Made by a program: the position numbers and the translations under genes. A stretch of DNA of 34,725 nucleotides from a virus, in the IMG/VR virus record IMGVR_UViG_3300037193_000532, positions 1-34,725 of that record. One strand, given 5' to 3'. Position 1 is the stretch's first letter, and every line of letters starts with the position of its first letter. The notes below the pieces were generated by a model. The model saw only the letters and a program-made list of their open reading frames with translations. It did no database searches and was not told the DNA's origin. Positions 934 to 8,754 of this stretch are shown here, in pieces.

Positions 934-1152
934 TTAGTTTAGTCCTCGTTCATCTGAAACAGATGAATAACCTCTGGCGCCGACACTATGAGACAGTGCC
1001 GCCTTCAAAGCTTCCTTCTCTGTGTTAAGATGAAGAAAGATGCGAGCCCTTGGACGCTGCATTTTAGGAGGAAAGAACTCTACACATTCAAGAGCTTGAA
1101 CCCACTTATAGGTTCCCTTCTTTCCCTTAGCGAGAATAACTGTCTCAACCAT
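934..1152 (-). CDS. Hypothetical protein, 72 aa
   Basis: The preferred start is the ATG at 1152, which overlaps the helicase stop as TGATG and has a GAGGGG ribosome-binding site nine nucleotides upstream. An earlier ATG at 1182 would lie inside the helicase gene. The protein MVETVILAKGKKGTYKWVQA... has a lysine-rich start, a beta-type middle and a helix EKEALKAALSHSVG. A perfect hairpin (949-967) lies within its last codons. It is coupled to the SNF2 helicase, so a role as helicase partner is possible but unproven. Confidence 0.6.
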   Translation of the reverse strand: MVETVILAKGKKGTYKWVQALECVEFFPPKMQRPRARIFLHLNTEKEALKAALSHSVGARGYSSVSDERGLN

Positions 1153-3128
1153 CAGATCAGACCCCTCAGCTTTTCCTTCCAATCGGACGGACGAAGCTTT
1201 TCATCTTCCATGATGCCAGCAATCATGTTCTGCTTCTTCTCAAGGATCTCAGCAATGAAGGCGTCGACACTATCCTCAGCCTGGAGAATGTGAACCATGA
1301 CAGGGTTAACCTGCCCCTTACGGTGAACACGATCCTCTGCCTGAACATTGGTCATCGGGTTGTACCACAGATCAAGGAAGATCACGTTAGACGACCCTCC
1401 CGGCCAGAAATTCGGGTTCTTATGGAGGTTCAGACCCTCACCGCCGGACTTCATGTTGATGAGGATTACGTCGTATTCCTTCTGCTGAAAACCTTCGACA
1501 ATGTCGTCCACATTGTTCGAAGTAGCACCACTAAGAATTCGACTAGTGATGCCACGATCATGAAGAAGATCGGCAAGCCGATCAAGAGGCTCATTAAACT
1601 GAGCAGAAAAAACGACAACCTGCTCTCCCTCTCGATGCAACTCTTCGATGATATCGAGAGCCTCGTCCAACTTAGCCGATTCCTGGCAAGGAATAGCAGT
1701 CTCAGTACCATCCTCGTTCTTCATGTGAACGCTAGCAGGGTAGAGATTGATCTGACGCAGACGAGTAAGTTGAGCAATGATTGCTGTAGCAGTAATCGTC
1801 TTAGTCGGGTCCATGCTGTCGAGTTCAATAAAGAACTCATCACGCATCTTCTCGTAGAACTTACGCTGCAAGTCCGTATGCTCAACGAAACGAGTCTCGT
1901 GAGTCTTGTCAGGAAGCTGGATCTTGACTTCATCCTTACGGCGACGGATGCACTGCTTTTGCATAACAGTAATCAGTCGCTCGAAGTCAATAAGACCCTG
2001 CTCGTATGCGTAACAGAACTCACGCTCGAACTTACCGAGATTGTTGAATCGCTCGGGGTTGAAGATATGAAGGTAGGCCCACATATCACGAGGATGGTTG
2101 TTGACAGGAGAACCAGTCAGGAAGTTAAGAAAGGGAGCATTCCGATCCTTAAGATCCTGCATAGTAACGAACTTGCCAACTTCACGAGTACCGTGGACGA
2201 GTTCCTTCAAGTTCTGCCAGATAGCAGTAGGTCCCGAAGGGTTAGCTCCGCCCTTGAGCTTATGAACCTCGTCGCAGATAATGAAGTCCCACTTGGTATT
2301 CATCAGCTGCTTGTTAGTGTTCAGAGCTTCGTAGTTCGTGATGATAATGGCATTAGCTTGGAGAGCGTACTCTAGCACAATCTTACGCTTCTCAACATCG
2401 CCGCCATTAGTGAAAGCGATTGCCTTCATATCTGGGTCCCATCGCTTGATTTCACGATGAGTTGTCTTGATGAGTGCCTTCTTGGTGAGCCACAAAATCA
2501 GCGGCTTGCGAGAATTAACTGTGTAGAACTCATTGATAACTGCACGCAGCCAAACGATAGTCTCGAAAGTCTTACCGAGACCCATATCGTTGAAGTTGGC
2601 AACGCCGTTGTACTGCTGCTTCCAGACATCGTAGGCAAAAACAATGTCTTCGAACTGGTAATCAAGGATGGCATCCTTGAACGGAGCGTTCTCGATGAGA
2701 GAAAGAAAATCCTTCTCAACCTTCTCAAGACGTTCCTTGGCAGCAAGAAGCTGGAGAAGCTCAGTCTTCTTCTTCTCGGCATCTTCAAGCTCTGCTCGGA
2801 CAGCGTTGAGTTCGTGGAGGAATGCAAGCTTCTCGTTATGAAGCCTGTTGTACTCCTGGTTCCAAGCAAGAGCCTTCTCATCGAATGCCTTATTGTTTGC
2901 CTCAATGGCAAGCTTGGCCTCGTAGAGAATCTTCTCGTTAGACTGATCCGTTTCCTTACGGAGTTCCTCACGGTTAGAACGAATCTCGGTCATAGCCTCA
3001 TCAAAAGGCTTAGCTCCCTGCTCGAATTTCTTCATTGTCTTTTCGAGTTCAGAGATTCGCTTAATGAGAATATCCCACTCTGAGGGTTCATTCTCAGTAA
3101 GATTCAAGAGAGGGAGTTGGTCTGTCAC
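1152..3128 (-). CDS. SNF2-family DEAD/DEAH-like helicase with coiled-coil N-terminus
   Basis: A 658-residue superfamily 2 ATPase of the Snf2/Rad54 type. Residues about 17-150 are a long charged coiled coil (ISELEKTMKKFE... AVRAELEDAEKKKTELLQ). The ATPase follows: Walker A DMGLGKT at 181-187, motif II DEVH at 286-289, and a helicase C-terminal half ending in motif VI DRVHRKGQ near 599-606. These are standard signatures of Snf2 proteins, which translocate on duplex DNA and remodel protein-DNA complexes; in phages they are usually assigned to replication or recombination. The start is GTG at 3128, overlapping the upstream stop as GTGA. The coiled coil is additional to the usual phage Snf2 core and could drive oligomerisation or partner binding. 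Confidence 0.9.
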   Translation of the reverse strand: MTDQLPLLNLTENEPSEWDILIKRISELEKTMKKFEQGAKPFDEAMTEIRSNREELRKETDQSNEKILYEAKLAIEANNKAFDEKALAWNQEYNRLHNEKLAFLHELNAVRAELEDAEKKKTELLQLLAAKERLEKVEKDFLSLIENAPFKDAILDYQFEDIVFAYDVWKQQYNGVANFNDMGLGKTFETIVWLRAVINEFYTVNSRKPLILWLTKKALIKTTHREIKRWDPDMKAIAFTNGGDVEKRKIVLEYALQANAIIITNYEALNTNKQLMNTKWDFIICDEVHKLKGGANPSGPTAIWQNLKELVHGTREVGKFVTMQDLKDRNAPFLNFLTGSPVNNHPRDMWAYLHIFNPERFNNLGKFEREFCYAYEQGLIDFERLITVMQKQCIRRRKDEVKIQLPDKTHETRFVEHTDLQRKFYEKMRDEFFIELDSMDPTKTITATAIIAQLTRLRQINLYPASVHMKNEDGTETAIPCQESAKLDEALDIIEELHREGEQVVVFSAQFNEPLDRLADLLHDRGITSRILSGATSNNVDDIVEGFQQKEYDVILINMKSGGEGLNLHKNPNFWPGGSSNVIFLDLWYNPMTNVQAEDRVHRKGQVNPVMVHILQAEDSVDAFIAEILEKKQNMIAGIMEDEKLRPSDWKEKLRGLI

Positions 3129-4659: not shown

Positions 4660-5445
4660 TTACTTCGTATCGGCTCCCTTCGTCTTTGCAACCCAATTCT
4701 TGCCAGCGTACTCAACTGGCGTATCCCAACCCTTTGTGAGATCGGGAATGTTCGCCTTCTCGCACGCCTTGAAGAGACCAACAGGATTGTGGTCAGCACG
4801 AATCGTGCCGAACACTTCAATGAAGGTCTTACCAAGGTGGTCGTTCTCAAACCACTTGGTCGACTTGCCATCGGTGATTCCCAGAACGAGAATCTTCATG
4901 CGGGAAGGACGCCCACGGGTCTTCGCTCCCTCGTTCTCTTCGCTGTTGACATCGAAGATGCGGGGGAGGTTGAGAACCTTGTTGTTGGCCTTTGTGAGCA
5001 CAACCTTTCCGTCCTCCATCTTGTAGATGGAATCGGGAAGTTCGACTTCACTGGCCACAAGGAAGTCGTGCAGACCTTCAATCTGCTTCTTCATCTTCTT
5101 TGCACTGTCGATCAACTCGATAATGTCACCCTCAAGTTCAACCTTCTTGCTTCGAGTATCGACATCGACGAGATAATTCGTTCGGGCTGTTGCATCGTTC
5201 GTAATCGTTCGGAGTGTTGCATTGAGGGCCTGAGCGACCGTCGAATCGAAGTTCGCATGGAAGAGCTTGTCGAACTTGAACAGAAGATCATTCATCGACT
5301 TGAAGACCTTCAACTGATCAGCGTCGAAACTCTCAACGAGCTTATCGACATTGACCTTTGGCGTTGCACTCTCACCTCGAATGGTCTTGACCATTTCCTT
5401 GAGAGCTTCGATCTTCTCGATGAGAACGTCAGCATTCAATTCCAT
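4660..5445 (-). CDS. Hypothetical protein with coiled coil and AT-hook-like motif, 261 aa
   Basis: Starts at ATG 5445 with an excellent ribosome-binding site (AAAGGAGAAAG). The N-terminal 130 residues are charged helices (VLIEKIEALKEMVKTIRG; DIIELIDSAKKMKKQIEGLH). Near residue 180 is KTRGRPSRMK, which matches the G-R-P core of AT-hook minor-groove-binding motifs. The C-terminal 80 residues form a compact domain (MKILVLGITDGKSTKWFEND ... NPVGLFKACEKANIPDLTKG) of unrecognised family. It is the last gene before the terminator at 4605. A DNA-associated role is inferred from the GRP motif only. Confidence 0.75.
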   Translation of the reverse strand: MELNADVLIEKIEALKEMVKTIRGESATPKVNVDKLVESFDADQLKVFKSMNDLLFKFDKLFHANFDSTVAQALNATLRTITNDATARTNYLVDVDTRSKKVELEGDIIELIDSAKKMKKQIEGLHDFLVASEVELPDSIYKMEDGKVVLTKANNKVLNLPRIFDVNSEENEGAKTRGRPSRMKILVLGITDGKSTKWFENDHLGKTFIEVFGTIRADHNPVGLFKACEKANIPDLTKGWDTPVEYAGKNWVAKTKGADTK

Positions 5446-5465
5446 TGCTTTCTCCTTTGGTTGTC

Positions 5466-5491
5466 CCGATTAGGGATTAGAACGTGCTGTC
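5466..5491 (+). repeat. 26-bp inverted repeat, left copy
   Basis: Begins CCGATTAGGG and ends CGTGCTGTC; 24 of 26 positions match the opposite-strand copy at 5877-5902. It lies in the leader of the 4660-5445 gene, about 20 bp upstream of the start, and contains the tandem GATTAGGGATTAG. Confidence 0.75.
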
Positions 5492-5500
5492 ATTCTTTAT

Positions 5501-5605
5501 TCAGTGGTTGAGCATCCAATCGAAGCAAAGGAAGCAGAGAAACTTCTTGAACATTCTGCTTCGCTTTACTGTATTCGATCGCTTACCGCATCGGTCACAC
5601 TTCAC
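5501..5605 (-). CDS. Mini zinc-ribbon-like protein, 34 aa
   Basis: GTG at 5605 overlaps the stop of the upstream gene; the product starts MKCDRCGKRSNTVKRS and ends FLCFLCFDWMLNH. Four cysteines form two CxxC knuckles (C3, C6, C24, C27), the spacing of a zinc ribbon. The segment between them is strongly basic. There is no clear ribosome-binding site, so expression would rely on coupling with the upstream gene. The paired CxxC motifs are the main evidence; in-frame chance cannot be excluded for so short a gene. Confidence 0.45.
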   Translation of the reverse strand: MKCDRCGKRSNTVKRSRMFKKFLCFLCFDWMLNH

Positions 5606-5852
5606 GGTTAGCAATCCGATCGTGCTTATTGCAAAGAGTCTCTTGGAAGAGAGCAATGTCGAGACAACCATCGACTTCACAGAATGACTTTCCATCAATT
5701 CGACGGTCATCCCAATTGCTCATTGCTCGTTCCAATTCGCTTACTGCTCGCTGTACTTTCTTTGCGAGCCGAACGTCCTTCTCAACATCCTTGAGAAACT
5801 CCTGGGTGCTTCGAAGAACGGCATTGACTGATTCGTCATATCGTCGAGCCAT
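5595..5852 (-). CDS. Small coiled-coil protein with C-terminal zinc-finger-like motif, 85 aa
   Basis: ATG at 5852 with TGGAGAAAG upstream. Residues 1-48 are a charged helix (SVNAVLRSTQEFLKDVEKDV...). The C-terminus carries C-x4-C-x10-C-x2-H (FCEVDGCLDIALFQETLCNKH), a small treble-clef or zinc-finger pattern frequent in phage early proteins. Both this gene and the next large one (5445) share the leader pattern GGAGAAAGCA-ATGG and a 26-bp inverted repeat in their leaders, suggesting common control. Function unknown. Confidence 0.7.
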   Translation of the reverse strand: MARRYDESVNAVLRSTQEFLKDVEKDVRLAKKVQRAVSELERAMSNWDDRRIDGKSFCEVDGCLDIALFQETLCNKHDRIANREV

Positions 5853-5876
5853 TGTGCTTTCTCCATTTCGTTCGGA

Positions 5877-5902
5877 GACAGCACGCTCTAAACCCTAATC
5901 GG
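5877..5902 (-). repeat. 26-bp inverted repeat, right copy
   Basis: Minus-strand copy of the 5466-5491 repeat (24/26 identical), located 24 bp upstream of the 5852 start. A TTGACA (5919-5924, minus strand) lies just upstream of it, so it may overlap a promoter, though the -10 is unclear. Confidence 0.75.
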
Positions 5903-5971
5903 AATTCGCATATTCAGTTGTCAATGTCCTTGGAAGTGACGTCGGTACTGTTCCCTACTGAACGGCCTTCT

Positions 5972-5988
5972 CTCGAAACGTATTCGAG
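5972..5988. other. Perfect short inverted repeat
   Basis: CTCGAA-ACGTA-TTCGAG lies in the long non-coding stretch 5903-6394. It is a 6-bp-arm stem-loop or operator half-site pair. Confidence 0.4.
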
Positions 5989-6045
5989 TAGGTGCGTCGT
6001 TGGGGGAGAGCGAAATTCTCGCCCCAGCCCGTTCCGTATTCCGTT

Positions 6046-6083
6046 CTCAAGGTTCCTGCTCGGTATTGCGTGAGCACCTTGAG
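6046..6083. other. Hairpin with 8+4 bp stem
   Basis: CTCAAGGT (6046-6053) pairs with ACCTTGAG (6076-6083), and inside it GCTC (6058-6061) pairs with GAGC (6072-6075), leaving a 10-nt loop and a 4-nt bulge. There is no U tract, so it is more likely an RNA structure or protein site than a terminator. Confidence 0.45.
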
Positions 6084-6172
6084 CGTAACAAACGAGTCAA
6101 GGGCAGAAACTAACTTTCTGTTGTCTTTCATGTCATTTCATTCTGTTGCAACTTCGTGACGAAATGATGCAT

Positions 6173-6196
6173 AACTATGCCCGCCGCTGCATAGTT
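6173..6196. repeat. Inverted repeat AACTATGC/GCATAGTT
   Basis: Eight-base arms around an 8-nt GC-rich centre (CCGCCGCT). This is the leftmost element of the palindrome array 6173-6298; its ATAGTT arm recurs in the 15-bp tandem repeats at 6263-6293. Confidence 0.6.
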
Positions 6197-6223
6197 GAGA
6201 ATGAGAACGATTCTCATTCTCAA
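6195..6223. promoter_or_regulatory. 29-bp palindrome made of four TGAGAA half-sites
   Basis: Two tandem TGAGAA hexamers, a CGA centre and two TTCTCA hexamers make perfect 13-bp arms. The central 15-mer TGAGAACGATTCTCA (6202-6216) matches 12 of 15 positions of the classical Fur-box 7-1-7 consensus TGATAATnATTATCA. Such symmetry with no coding role points to a dimeric protein binding site. The Fur-family link is an inference. Confidence 0.6.
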
Positions 6224-6229
6224 TGAAAG

Positions 6230-6244
6230 TGAGAACCATTCTCA
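6230..6244. promoter_or_regulatory. Second Fur-box-like operator
   Basis: TGAGAACCATTCTCA differs at one base from the central 15-mer of the preceding palindrome and is centred 28 bp from it, suggesting cooperative sites. Confidence 0.55.
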
Positions 6245-6262
6245 TTACTACTTCGCCGCCGG

Positions 6263-6298
6263 ATAGTTTGATGTCAAATAGTTTGATGTCAAACTATT
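6263..6298. repeat. Tandem 15-bp repeats with TTTGATGTCAAA cores
   Basis: ATAGTTTGATGTCAAA occurs at 6263-6278 and 6278-6293 with a 15-bp period. The second copy extends into a perfect palindrome (10-bp arms AATAGTTTGA / TCAAACTATT, 6277-6298). Each copy carries TTGACA on the minus strand. It looks like a pair of iterons or operators. Confidence 0.65.
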
Positions 6299-6388
6299 CA
6301 GCCCCGAAGGAATTTATTGATCCCCCTTGACAGCCCAGGCGACGGACGGTAGTCCCTAATTAATTCTACAGACAGACAAAAACCTTAC

Positions 6389-6569
6389 ACTAGACTAATC
6401 CCCAATACGAATTGCAAACCCTAACAATTGTACCAAAGGCCACTTTCTGATGATCGGAGCAATCTTTACAATCTTTCCATCTTTCACAACGAACCCAGCT
6501 GTGAACGTATCGAAACTTATACGGTACAGACCATCCTCCACTAGACTACTCCTTATGTGAACTAGACTA
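6389..6569 (-). repeat. Three copies of TAGTCTAGT
   Basis: The 9-mer ACTAGACTA (minus strand TAGTCTAGT) occurs at 6389-6397, 6540-6548 and 6561-6569. Two copies bracket the ribosome-binding site of the 6395-6541 gene and one overlaps its stop. Each is itself a direct repeat of TAGT around a C. Confidence 0.6.
6395..6541 (-). CDS. Small conserved-type phage protein, 48 aa
   Basis: GTG at 6541 preceded by a perfect AAGGAG seven nucleotides upstream. The product reads MEDGLYRISFDTFTAGFVVK, then DGKIVKIAPIIRKWPLVQLL. The pattern 'TAGFVV-DG-...-APII' is one I recognise from many small hypothetical proteins in actinobacteria and their phages; its function is not known. Coding is supported by the ribosome-binding site, the absence of frame breaks and this family-like pattern. 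It overlaps the TAGTCTAGT repeats at both ends. Confidence 0.75.
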   Translation of the reverse strand: MEDGLYRISFDTFTAGFVVKDGKIVKIAPIIRKWPLVQLLGFAIRIGD

Positions 6570-6611
6570 AAGTAAACCGCACGCTGGGCAGCATTTAACC
6601 TACAAGGGCTT

Positions 6612-6621
6612 CCCTGTAGGA
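6612..6621 (+). repeat. Dispersed repeat copy 4 (core with C at position 1), intergenic
   Basis: CCCTGTAGGA. An inverted half-site (CCTACAAGGG, 6599-6608) immediately precedes it, so the two could form a short stem-loop. Confidence 0.7.
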
Positions 6622-6623
6622 AA

Positions 6624-6719
6624 TTATTTTCTGTTCCGAAATTCGTTAATATATGTCAGTAGTACGACAATGATCGCTATGCCTGGAACAACCAGCAGCA
6701 TATACCATTGCCAACCCAT
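6624..6719 (-). CDS. Single-span membrane mini-protein, 31 aa
   Basis: The reading frame MGWQWYMLLVVPGIAIIVVL... ends LTYINEFRNRK. It is a near-ideal single transmembrane helix (about residues 5-23) with a charged cytoplasmic-type tail. It begins directly after the tRNA gene, with no proper ribosome-binding site, so it may be translated weakly or from a processed transcript. The clean amphipathic boundary (hydrophobic, then NEFRNRK) is the reason for calling it. Possible roles (holin-like, exclusion) cannot be told apart. Confidence 0.4.
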   Translation of the reverse strand: MGWQWYMLLVVPGIAIIVVLLTYINEFRNRK

Positions 6720-6721
6720 AG

Positions 6722-6794
6722 CTCGGGAGAGAGGATTCGAACCCCTAGCATCCAGGACCAAAGCCTAGCGTTCTGCCAATTGAACTACTCCCGA
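6722..6794 (-). tRNA. tRNA-Gln (anticodon TTG)
   Basis: A 73-nt cloverleaf folds without forcing: acceptor TCGGGAG/CTCCCGA, D stem GTTC/GAAC, anticodon stem CTAGG/CCTGG with loop CTTTGGT, T stem AGGGG/CCTCT with loop TTCGAAT. Position 34-36 reads TTG. The weak U1-A72 first pair and G73 discriminator are classical glutamine identity elements. CCA is not encoded. The gene lies just downstream of the Acb2-like gene and is transcribed leftward with it. It would read CAA codons, which are frequent in the Gln-rich virion genes of this phage. Confidence 0.9.
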
Positions 6795-6804
6795 AGACCG
6801 CTAG

Positions 6805-7125
6805 TTACTCTGCGTGAGTACCTTCGACTTGTCTGCGTTCACGATCAGCGGTTCGATGCTGAAGCCAATGAATAGCTTCTTGAATATGAGTGATCGCAAG
6901 GGAGTTTTCTCTACAACGGAACTTTGTTTCGTTGTAGTGTTCAATTCTCTGCACAACAGCTTGGAGGACAGTTTCGACAAAGGCCCCGTCGGGTTCTTGA
7001 CGATCTTCACCTCTACCTAAAGGTCCATCCTGCCAAGTAATTGATAACCCAACGCCGCTGACGTAGCCACCAGCAGGATTACCGTTATCGTCGAGTCTGT
7101 TTTCAGCCTCAAACTTATCTAACAT
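6805..7125 (-). CDS. acb2: Acb2/Tad1-type cyclic-nucleotide sponge (anti-CBASS/anti-Thoeris), 106 aa
   Basis: ATG at 7125 with AGGAGAT upstream. Residues 69-103 (FRCRENSLAITHIQEAIHWL, then QHRTADRERRQVEGTH) match the Acb2/Tad1 hairpin domain as I know it from phages: a conserved R-E-x-S/A-L-A-I-T-x-L/I-x-x-A start, an amphipathic W-L helix and a VEGTH end. The N-terminal half (VGLSITWQDGPLGRG, then PDGAFVETVLQAV) is a pattern seen fused to this hairpin in actinophage proteins. Known family members bind and sequester signalling cyclic nucleotides of CBASS and, in related proteins, the cADPR-type signal of Thoeris, blocking abortive infection. The exact ligand here is unknown. Confidence 0.72.
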   Translation of the reverse strand: MLDKFEAENRLDDNGNPAGGYVSGVGLSITWQDGPLGRGEDRQEPDGAFVETVLQAVVQRIEHYNETKFRCRENSLAITHIQEAIHWLQHRTADRERRQVEGTHAE

Positions 7126-7218
7126 GGTATCTCCTGTTTGTTTGTGAGATAAACGGTTGCCTCAGCCCACTAGCAACCACGGTCGGCCCTCCAGTTATTC
7201 AACCGACTCCCAGTTTTA

Positions 7219-7749
7219 TTACTTCTTAGCTAACGCCTTTTCGAGACGATCACGGTCAGTACGATCATCAGGATCAAGACCCTGCTTCTCGTCTGCACGC
7301 TTACGAACGTCCTCATCAATGGCGCCGAGCATTTCAACCACTTCGCCAACGAAGGAGGGACTCGCACCAGCAGGCCGCTCTAACGGAGCCGGGTACAAAA
7401 TGTTGCCGTCACGAACGTAACGGTCCTTCTCGTACGCCTCACGAATAAGGCCGGCATCGAAGGTTCGATGGTCTCTTTCAACAGCCTGATCAACAGGCTC
7501 AGCATCCATGAATTCCTGACGCCGTTCCTCGAACTGTTCGTTCTCGATTAAAGCACGAGCTTCTGCAGCCTTGGCTGAATTGTCAAGACCGTCGAATCGC
7601 TTGTGATCGAGAAGACTGTTCCCATCGGCAACAGAACCATCAGAGTTCTCGTCGTCGTTTCCCTCTTCGGTCTCTTCGACTTCTTCGGGATCGGGCTGTT
7701 GCGGAGCAGTAGGGGTGTCACTGCCAGTGACAGGGTTAAACGGTTCCAC
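7219..7749 (-). CDS. Acidic, disordered hypothetical protein, 176 aa
   Basis: The GTG at 7749 has AAAGGA six nucleotides upstream and is preferred to the TTG at 7767. Residues 1-50 are proline- and acid-rich (QQPDPEEVEETEEGNDDENS) and probably disordered. The rest is charged helix (DNSAKAAEARALIENEQFEE) and ends DRLEKALAKK. It overlaps the upstream zinc-finger gene by 14 nt. The composition is typical of scaffold-like or DNA-mimic acidic early proteins, but I see nothing decisive. Confidence 0.65.
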   Translation of the reverse strand: MEPFNPVTGSDTPTAPQQPDPEEVEETEEGNDDENSDGSVADGNSLLDHKRFDGLDNSAKAAEARALIENEQFEERRQEFMDAEPVDQAVERDHRTFDAGLIREAYEKDRYVRDGNILYPAPLERPAGASPSFVGEVVEMLGAIDEDVRKRADEKQGLDPDDRTDRDRLEKALAKK

Positions 7750-7966
7750 TCTTGTTCCTTTCGACAAGTTGCAACTTGTTTCTATTGAGCAGTTTTCTCG
7801 TACGCGAAATTTCTGCTCTCTTGTGACGTAACTCTAACATCCGTGGTGTCACCTGTCTAAGCTGTTTATAAGGCAGACAAGATTGACATACCATAAAATC
7901 CAAGTGCTTAAACAGATCAGTTACGTTGCGGCATCCATCACAAAACCCATACCCATCAGAATGCAC
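7736..7966 (-). CDS. Zinc-finger-like protein, 76 aa
   Basis: GTG at 7966 overlaps the upstream stop. The N-terminus has two CxxC knuckles: FCDGCRNVTD, then MVCQSCLPYK (C9, C12, C27, C30), a zinc-ribbon arrangement. The C-terminal half is highly basic (LRHKRAEISRTRKLLNRNKL), suitable for nucleic-acid binding. Unknown family; probably a small regulator or nucleic-acid-binding early protein. Confidence 0.6.
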   Translation of the reverse strand: MHSDGYGFCDGCRNVTDLFKHLDFMVCQSCLPYKQLRQVTPRMLELRHKRAEISRTRKLLNRNKLQLVERNKSGTV

Positions 7967-8231
7967 TATCGCTTAGGACCTTTTCGACGTCTCGACGGGC
8001 CTTTTGCATAACCCGTTCTTCGGGTGGAATTGCAAAGTGATCGTAAAGAAACTGATAGTGTTCTCGTTCAGAAGCATCTCCCTTGTAGCTGTTAAACTTG
8101 ACTAGGAAGTCGAACAGTGCCAGTCTGGCTAGAACATCAGTATCAACCATTCGTTTTCCGCTCAGACGTTGAAGCGAACGAATCATCGATTCAGGAATTT
8201 CTAGTTCAACTGTCACAGTAGGTTCGGGCAT
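7956..8231 (-). CDS. Hypothetical protein, 91 aa, possible ribbon-helix-helix start
   Basis: ATG at 8231. The N-terminus TVTVELEIPESMIRSLQRLS has the beta-strand-then-helix order of ribbon-helix-helix proteins, in which a short strand is followed by two helices (KRMVDTDVLARLALFDFLV). The rest is charged. It is the first gene of the leftward operon, and its start codon overlaps, on the opposite strand, the start codon of the first rightward gene (CATG). A regulator sitting at the divergence point is plausible. No clear ribosome-binding site is present, so the start is uncertain. Confidence 0.6.
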   Translation of the reverse strand: MPEPTVTVELEIPESMIRSLQRLSGKRMVDTDVLARLALFDFLVKFNSYKGDASEREHYQFLYDHFAIPPEERVMQKARRDVEKVLSDSAF

Positions 8232-8754
8232 GACAACACCAGTCGATTGGGTTCAAGAACGATTAGACAGGTCTCCAATTCGAGCCCTTCGCACAAAACA
8301 TTACCCTGACAGAGCCCTCTTGTGCAAGAAGCTCGGTATCAGTGATAGTGTCATTTATATGGCTGAACTAGCCTGCTACCCTGATCTTCCTGTTCGTCTA
8401 TACCGAACATTCTTCCAGGATGAATCGACAAGAAAGCTTTTTCGTAGGGTCTACCACAGTTTTCAGATCGATGAACGAAAACTGTTTGGCTTCATGTTCA
8501 GCCTAGAAGAAGTAACTAGACTACAGATTCACCAGGCGGGAGAGTCTCCGGTGTCGGCGCTGGCCTCTCACCTGGGTGTTTCCCGTGCTGACCTGGGTAA
8601 AGGGCTATGCTTGCAGCCCAGCCTCTTATATAGGCACGATCGAGGGCTCTCGAAGGAGCTTGGCAGCGAATTTCGTATTGCGCTGCTTCAAGCAGGACTT
8701 CCGTTAGACATCGTCGATTACTTGGATCAGAGGCAGCAACGTTATGCCGCATAA
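8230..8754 (+). CDS. Putative DNA-binding protein with two HTH-like segments, 174 aa
   Basis: First gene of the late rightward operon. Residues about 24-60 (YPDRALLCKKLGISDSVIYM) and about 105-135 (SPVSALASHLGVSRADLGKG) each have the A-x-x-L-G-[IV]-S turn of Cro/CI-type helix-turn-helix units. Tandem HTHs upstream of terminase suggest a late regulator or a terminase/cos recognition accessory. No strong ribosome-binding site precedes the ATG at 8230, which overlaps the leftward start. Its 3' end overlaps terS by 11 nt. Assignment rests on pattern and context. Confidence 0.6.
   Translation: MTTPVDWVQERLDRSPIRALRTKHYPDRALLCKKLGISDSVIYMAELACYPDLPVRLYRTFFQDESTRKLFRRVYHSFQIDERKLFGFMFSLEEVTRLQIHQAGESPVSALASHLGVSRADLGKGLCLQPSLLYRHDRGLSKELGSEFRIALLQAGLPLDIVDYLDQRQQRYAA

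Follow-up and report, generated by a model that had tools for sequence, protein, structure and literature searches.

A cluster of dyad-symmetric sites with Fur/Zur-type boxes between the early and late genes of an uncultured Jasmine-like podovirus

The non-coding array described here is a non-random cluster of dyad-symmetric sites. It lies in a 34.7-kb IMG/VR record from an uncultured podovirus, and this whole stretch of 34,725 nucleotides is referred to as the window. With moderate confidence, its sequence suggests a control element with several operators, placed between the early and the late genes, that would be read by a host dimer of the Fur/Zur family and by a second dimeric regulator. 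A first-pass annotation had offered two readings, a replication origin with iterons or a multi-operator switch. The second is supported as far as the type of site goes: there are two Fur/Zur-family boxes, relatives retain such boxes in the equivalent gap, and the array lies in an early/late control region.

Setting and architecture of the array

As homologous genes for TerL, portal, major capsid protein, SNF2-type helicase and PolA on matching strands show, the record represents part of the genome of a Jasmine-like podovirus (short-tailed phage). TerL and the major capsid protein share 37-43% identity with the Jasmine/Brad/Shocker/DS1 group and MW202795, and the helicase (1152-3128, minus strand) is 41% identical to that of MW202795. 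A PolA-type polymerase and a RuvC-like resolvase are encoded on the minus strand at the right end, and part of the replication arm appears to be missing from the contig. Megablast of the first 25 kb of the window against phages gave zero matches, the early protein encoded at 4660-5445 retrieved no relatives when used as a bait, and many early-arm genes belong to no known family. Genes run leftward (early/replication arm) left of about 8.2 kb and rightward (late arm) from 8230, where the first late-arm gene (8230-8754, plus strand) precedes the terminase genes. The array is located within the leftward early arm, in a gap without convincing genes. This gap is bordered on the right by a tRNA-Gln(TTG) gene (6721-6794, minus strand) and on the left by the first plausible early gene (5595-5852, minus strand; 85 aa, GGAGAAAG ribosome-binding site). 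Beyond the tRNA gene, positions 6805-7125 (minus strand) encode a 106-aa protein with a good match to phrog_2428 and a score of 24.6 bits, below the cut-off of 27, for PF24729 (Acb2/Tad1 hairpin domain); it is a possible anti-defence protein.

The span originally given for the array, 6173-6298, is essentially correct, but the symmetry runs on to 6309. Read from the left, the array begins with an inverted repeat with 8-bp arms and a C-rich loop of 8 nt (AACTATGC-CCGCCGCT-GCATAGTT, 6173-6196), followed by a 29-bp palindrome (6195-6223) in which the four TGAGAA half-sites noted earlier were found as two copies each of TGAGAA and TTCTCA. The 13-bp arms of this palindrome are perfect, but its 3-nt centre, CGA, is not self-complementary. 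Its core is a 7-1-7 Fur-family box, TGAGAACGATTCTCA (box 1, 6202-6216), and the third TGAGAA/TTCTCA pair, 28 bp further on, is a second such box, TGAGAACCATTCTCA (box 2, 6230-6244). The remainder is enclosed by outer arms CTTCG...CGAAG (6251-6309), a wider symmetry than first described, with 28-nt arms that are 79% complementary and would form a long hairpin if single-stranded. Within it lie two tandem 15-bp repeats, ATAGTTTGATGTCAA (6263-6277 and 6278-6292), which place TTGACA twice on the minus strand and are accompanied by a partial third copy. The second repeat runs into a 22-bp palindrome, AATAGTTTGATGTCAAACTATT (6277-6298), whose 10-bp arms are perfect, whereas its centre, TG, is not symmetric. 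This palindrome is a candidate operator of a second dimeric protein. The shared element ATAGTT was located at 6191-6196, 6263-6268 and 6278-6283.

Zero ORFs of at least 60 aa overlap the array, in line with the earlier statement that no credible coding frame exists here, and the claim that density and symmetry exceed anything else in the window was borne out as well: the palindrome-cluster score is 18, as compared with 10 at the next place and 4-11 in 20 Markov shuffles. The window contains four matches to the Fur-type consensus vs 0.11 expected and three matches to the TAGTTTGATGTCAAACTA pattern vs 0.02 expected.

Fur/Zur-type boxes in the window, its relatives and unrelated phages

Both boxes are 7-1-7 inverted repeats near TGATAATNATTATCA or a published variant of it, and box 1 is letter-for-letter identical to published Fur sites of E. 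faecalis. In a weight matrix built from the sites printed in PMC6056675 and the canonical 7-1-7 form, box 1 and box 2 each score 22.4 of 24.1, and the next place in the window reaches 13.0. The box centres are asymmetric (AAC/ATT). Extended Fur boxes carry extra half-sites around the core, and the 29-bp palindrome has two such half-sites flanking box 1. A phage-encoded Fur was considered and dropped, since the PF01475 (Fur) profile was found in none of six phages of the group, while a control search was positive in 13 of 14 genomes. Our literature search retrieved no relevant publication on Fur boxes in phage genomes, which is weak evidence of absence because most subscription journals lie outside that search.

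Dimers of a host metalloregulator of the Fur/Zur family would bind boxes 1 and 2 and control leftward early transcription that begins within the array or close to it. The TTTGAtgTCAAA palindromes possibly serve a second dimeric regulator, and the neighbouring TTGATCCC motif possibly a conserved phage factor. In this way the phage would tie part of its early programme to the metal status of the host; alternatively, an abundant host repressor might simply serve it as a ready-made switch. Neither a clear sigma-70 promoter nor a terminator-like site was detected at the array of the window by the default scan. A weak leftward promoter candidate, in which we place low confidence, lies inside the 15-bp repeats (6266-6293, minus strand; TTGACA at 6293-6288, 16 nt, CAAACT; 9/12 matches). 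In several relatives, a TTGACT-17/18-CATACT-like promoter that points leftward lies about 180-250 bp left of the TTGATCCC motif, and most of those examined have a TTGACA-like promoter with 17-nt spacing 79-138 bp after the motif and before the first late gene. In six loci (L048, L099, L105, L106, L122 and L123), repeated TTGAGCAC-type octamers occur at +50 to +140 relative to the motif, upstream of and within the spacer of a TTGACA-17-TACCCT late promoter, and are candidate late-promoter operators.

Comparison with related phages, which the first-pass annotation had proposed as a check, relied on 80 loci collected by terminase alignment and gave a divided answer: the Fur-type boxes and the TTGATCCC motif are kept, but the 15-bp repeat and the 22-bp palindrome were found in no other viral contig. 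Blastn of window positions 5000-8300 against all 80 loci yielded very short matches only. Those within the array (L054:8098-8118 and L010:11413-11433) belong to the loci with the closest helicases and correspond to the Fur-type box, in the gap between leftward and rightward genes, at loci whose proteins are only about 40% identical to those of the window. The L054 box, TGAGAACCATTCTCA, is the same 15-mer as box 2, L010 has GGAGAACGATTCTCA and a degenerate TGAGAACCGTTACTA, and L022 carries the pair CGATAACGATTCTCA and TGAGAACCATTCTCA in its early arm. L054 also has a counterpart of the 6173-6196 inverted repeat (TTATGCA-CCCCTC-TGCATAA) at the equivalent place. In total, the 256 kb that precede TerL in 41 relatives hold 9 boxes vs 0-1 in shuffles. 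The Fur-type box is absent from the group whose TTGATCCC motif has a short spacer, which comprises most motif-bearing relatives and in which the palindromes are often of the GTTAGG..CCTAAC type and adjoin the motif; the boxes are therefore not essential to the basic function of the region. L054, L010 and L088, the loci that have the long spacer as well, are not close neighbours of the window in a TerL tree, so that the long spacer and the boxes are either old or were gained repeatedly.

The palindromes might instead be operators of a phage-encoded dimeric regulator or of an unrelated host regulator, the likeness to Fur boxes being convergent. Across the group, the dyad symmetry of the sites persists while their sequence differs: the short-spacer clade has GTTAGG..CCTAAC, and L054 has the GACTGACTAATCAGTCAGT type. 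Phage regulators that co-evolve would be expected to leave this pattern, and the many early genes outside known families leave room for such a protein. We nevertheless regard this as unlikely, because a 15-mer identical to known Fur sites that also occurs in unrelated phages is more easily explained by one conserved host family, and because the early arm of the window yielded no regulator gene.

A lone match to the 15-mer in viral contigs is near chance, and only clustering was therefore counted. Another box lies within 150 bp in 21 of 114 distinct viral 15-mer stretches, some of which may come from contigs that include host DNA, as compared with 0.15 expected from shuffled flanks; the reversed control pattern is rare. 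Window positions 6190-6255 (66 bp) match the phapecoctavirus ECO340P2 with E 1e-3, all other matches being at E 0.1 or weaker. ECO340P2 has six boxes at steps of 29/29/24/29/29 bp, the phapecoctavirus tuntematon has four boxes at 29 bp, and ABPH49 and several contigs also show 29-bp steps, with long ORF-poor gaps. Box clusters, often 29 bp apart, are likewise found in T5-like and phAPEC8-like phages, and none were found in T7, Shocker and DS1. Non-coding arrays with 29-bp steps were located in unrelated phages, including phapecoctaviruses, at L328:1510-1665, L327:1510-1612, L274:45-117, L217:8341-8431 and L299:700-781; in the T5-like phage phiR2-01, the boxes are situated close to the inner boundary of the terminal repeat. 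It is conceivable, although we consider it rather doubtful, that the use of such clusters to read or titrate a host metalloregulator is widespread among unrelated phages, with arrays in the main control or entry region, and that the window is one instance, its boxes coupling the early programme to the metal status of the host. Should the boxes work, the main control region of a phage without a Fur of its own would have a host metal sensor built into it, and unrelated phages would share this arrangement. A testable link between iron or zinc status and phage development would follow. A suitable search signature would be at least two 7-1-7 boxes in non-coding phage DNA, in many cases spaced by about 22-30 bp.

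The second type of palindrome, TAGTTTGATGTCAAACTA, gave no match in viral contigs or in the literature, and the 67 stretches found in bacterial genomes, several of them from Paenibacillus, amount to only about twice the estimated expectation for 17 fixed bases. The form TNGTTTGATGTCAAACTA is present in many Paenibacillus genomes (L160, L161, L167, L170, L173, L176, L184, L187, L193, L194 and L198), where it is possibly a real operator.

The conserved TTGATCCC motif and rival readings of the region

To the right of the array, positions 6317-6343 (plus strand) hold a motif, TTGATCCCCCTTGACAGCCCAGGCGAC (TTGATCCC...GCGAY), in a form with a long spacer that L010, L054 and L088 also have. It is directly followed by a short hairpin, GGAC-GGTA-GTCC (6344-6355, plus strand), and by eye many relatives have some hairpin here. 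The window, L054 and L010 have the motif next to their boxes, and it recurs in a dozen further relatives with neighbouring palindromes of different sequence. A scan of viral contigs with TTGATCCCN{2,5}TTATGCGAY matched 36 stretches; in all of those encoding TerL/TerS relatives the motif has the same orientation and lies about 1.6-2.8 kb before TerL, and the remaining stretches look like chance matches elsewhere. TTGATCCC...TATGCGAY marks a conserved and apparently previously undescribed control site of a large group of uncultured podoviruses.

The constant orientation of the motif toward the terminase genes would also suit a genome-end or packaging site. A direct terminal repeat would then have its left end cut near the array or TTGATCCC, and the palindromes would act as terminase recognition or concatemer-processing signals. 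By analogy, the terminal repeats of Jasmine, Brad and Casserole (1330-1558 bp) have their left end within the corresponding gap, immediately behind a CTATCC repeat array and inside a hairpin (PMC5513430). One or more leftward genes separate that end from the late promoter, just as 1.5 kb of leftward genes plus the tRNA gene separate the motif from the late arm in the window. The analogy makes this reading a serious competitor, although we rate it as quite unlikely: no TTGATCCC motif was found near the termini of Brad, Jasmine, Casserole and Shocker, the only phages with recorded genome ends, the circular assembly of G001 offers no end, and the window has no end repeat. Contig ends near the motif had been considered as a sign of a genome end and were dropped, as the two ends of the G001 contig overlap by 123 bp and so join into a circle. 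Each copy of the terminal repeat of Brad holds one Fur-like box, TGAGATTCATTATCA (L012:294 and 44163), some 290 bp in from the end.

The 160 nt left of the motif are strongly structured in the window (fold z -10.9, first among 50 tiles of this length), and in 9 of 14 members this tile is among the top five. Together with the differing palindromes, these ranks indicate that dyad symmetry is common at this site and that its sequence is not kept. L006 is the most extreme: within an ORF-poor stretch at about 1150-2480, seven consecutive hairpins (L006:2035-2320) with perfect stems of 8-28 bp and loops of 2-4 nt, including a 59-bp palindrome with TATAAT, lie just upstream of the TTGATCCC motif and the late promoter.

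Such hairpins could be taken as signs of a replication origin, at which an initiator would bind the palindromes and TTGATCCC/TTATGCGAYAA and A+T-rich DNA to the right of the motif would melt. The region is non-coding, the motif is strongly conserved and in relatives an A+T-rich block follows before the late promoter, but the window has no marked block of this kind directly after its motif. The iterons of the first-pass annotation found no specific support, given that the 15-bp unit is present only twice and in part and that no initiator was identified. The GC-skew analysis suggested at that time gave a change near 8-9 kb that coincides with the gene-strand switch, which explains it and makes it uninformative on its own. 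We consider an origin improbable.

Even less probable, to a degree that makes it very remote, is a structured RNA or terminator array acting post-transcriptionally. Four tandem hairpins on the plus strand of the array (fold z -8.3) and the short loops in L006 are compatible with it. Yet the adjacent genes run leftward and the minus strand folds about equally well (z -7.2), Rfam detected nothing in the window other than the tRNA, the array has no terminator-like site, and conservation is highest in the protein-box sequences, not in the stems. An aligned-fold test recovered no consensus pairs in the motif region, as the loop length varies among the sequences, and with these results the RNA reading was set aside.

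Comparison with known systems

Four known systems come closest to the array. One is the Fur site of E. faecalis listed for fhuD and feoAB (PMC6056675): box 1 is the identical 15-mer and has extra half-sites around it, as in extended boxes. The array, however, is found in a phage and not upstream of iron genes, and its boxes are predicted sites. The Zur sites of C. glutamicum, verified by band shift, are 10-1-10 palindromes, and one of them, at znuB2/C2, shares with the array a 21-bp palindrome with a 1-bp centre and an AAC core (TAATGATAACGGTTATCATTT; PMC2823685). Isolated relatives of the phage infect Actinobacteria; the arms, on the other hand, are GATAA/TTATC there and GAGAA/TTCTC in the array. 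The phapecoctaviruses ECO340P2 and tuntematon and the T5-like phiR2-01 resemble the window in that long gaps poor in ORFs hold clusters of AATGAGAAYNATTCTCATT-type boxes at intervals of about 28-29 bp, although these phages are unrelated to it and have more boxes. Finally, the Arthrobacter phages Jasmine and Brad possess homologous capsid, terminase, helicase and polymerase genes and, likewise, a non-coding repeat or palindrome array left of the late arm, but theirs consists of CTATCC units, lacks the TTGATCCC motif and coincides with a mapped physical end.
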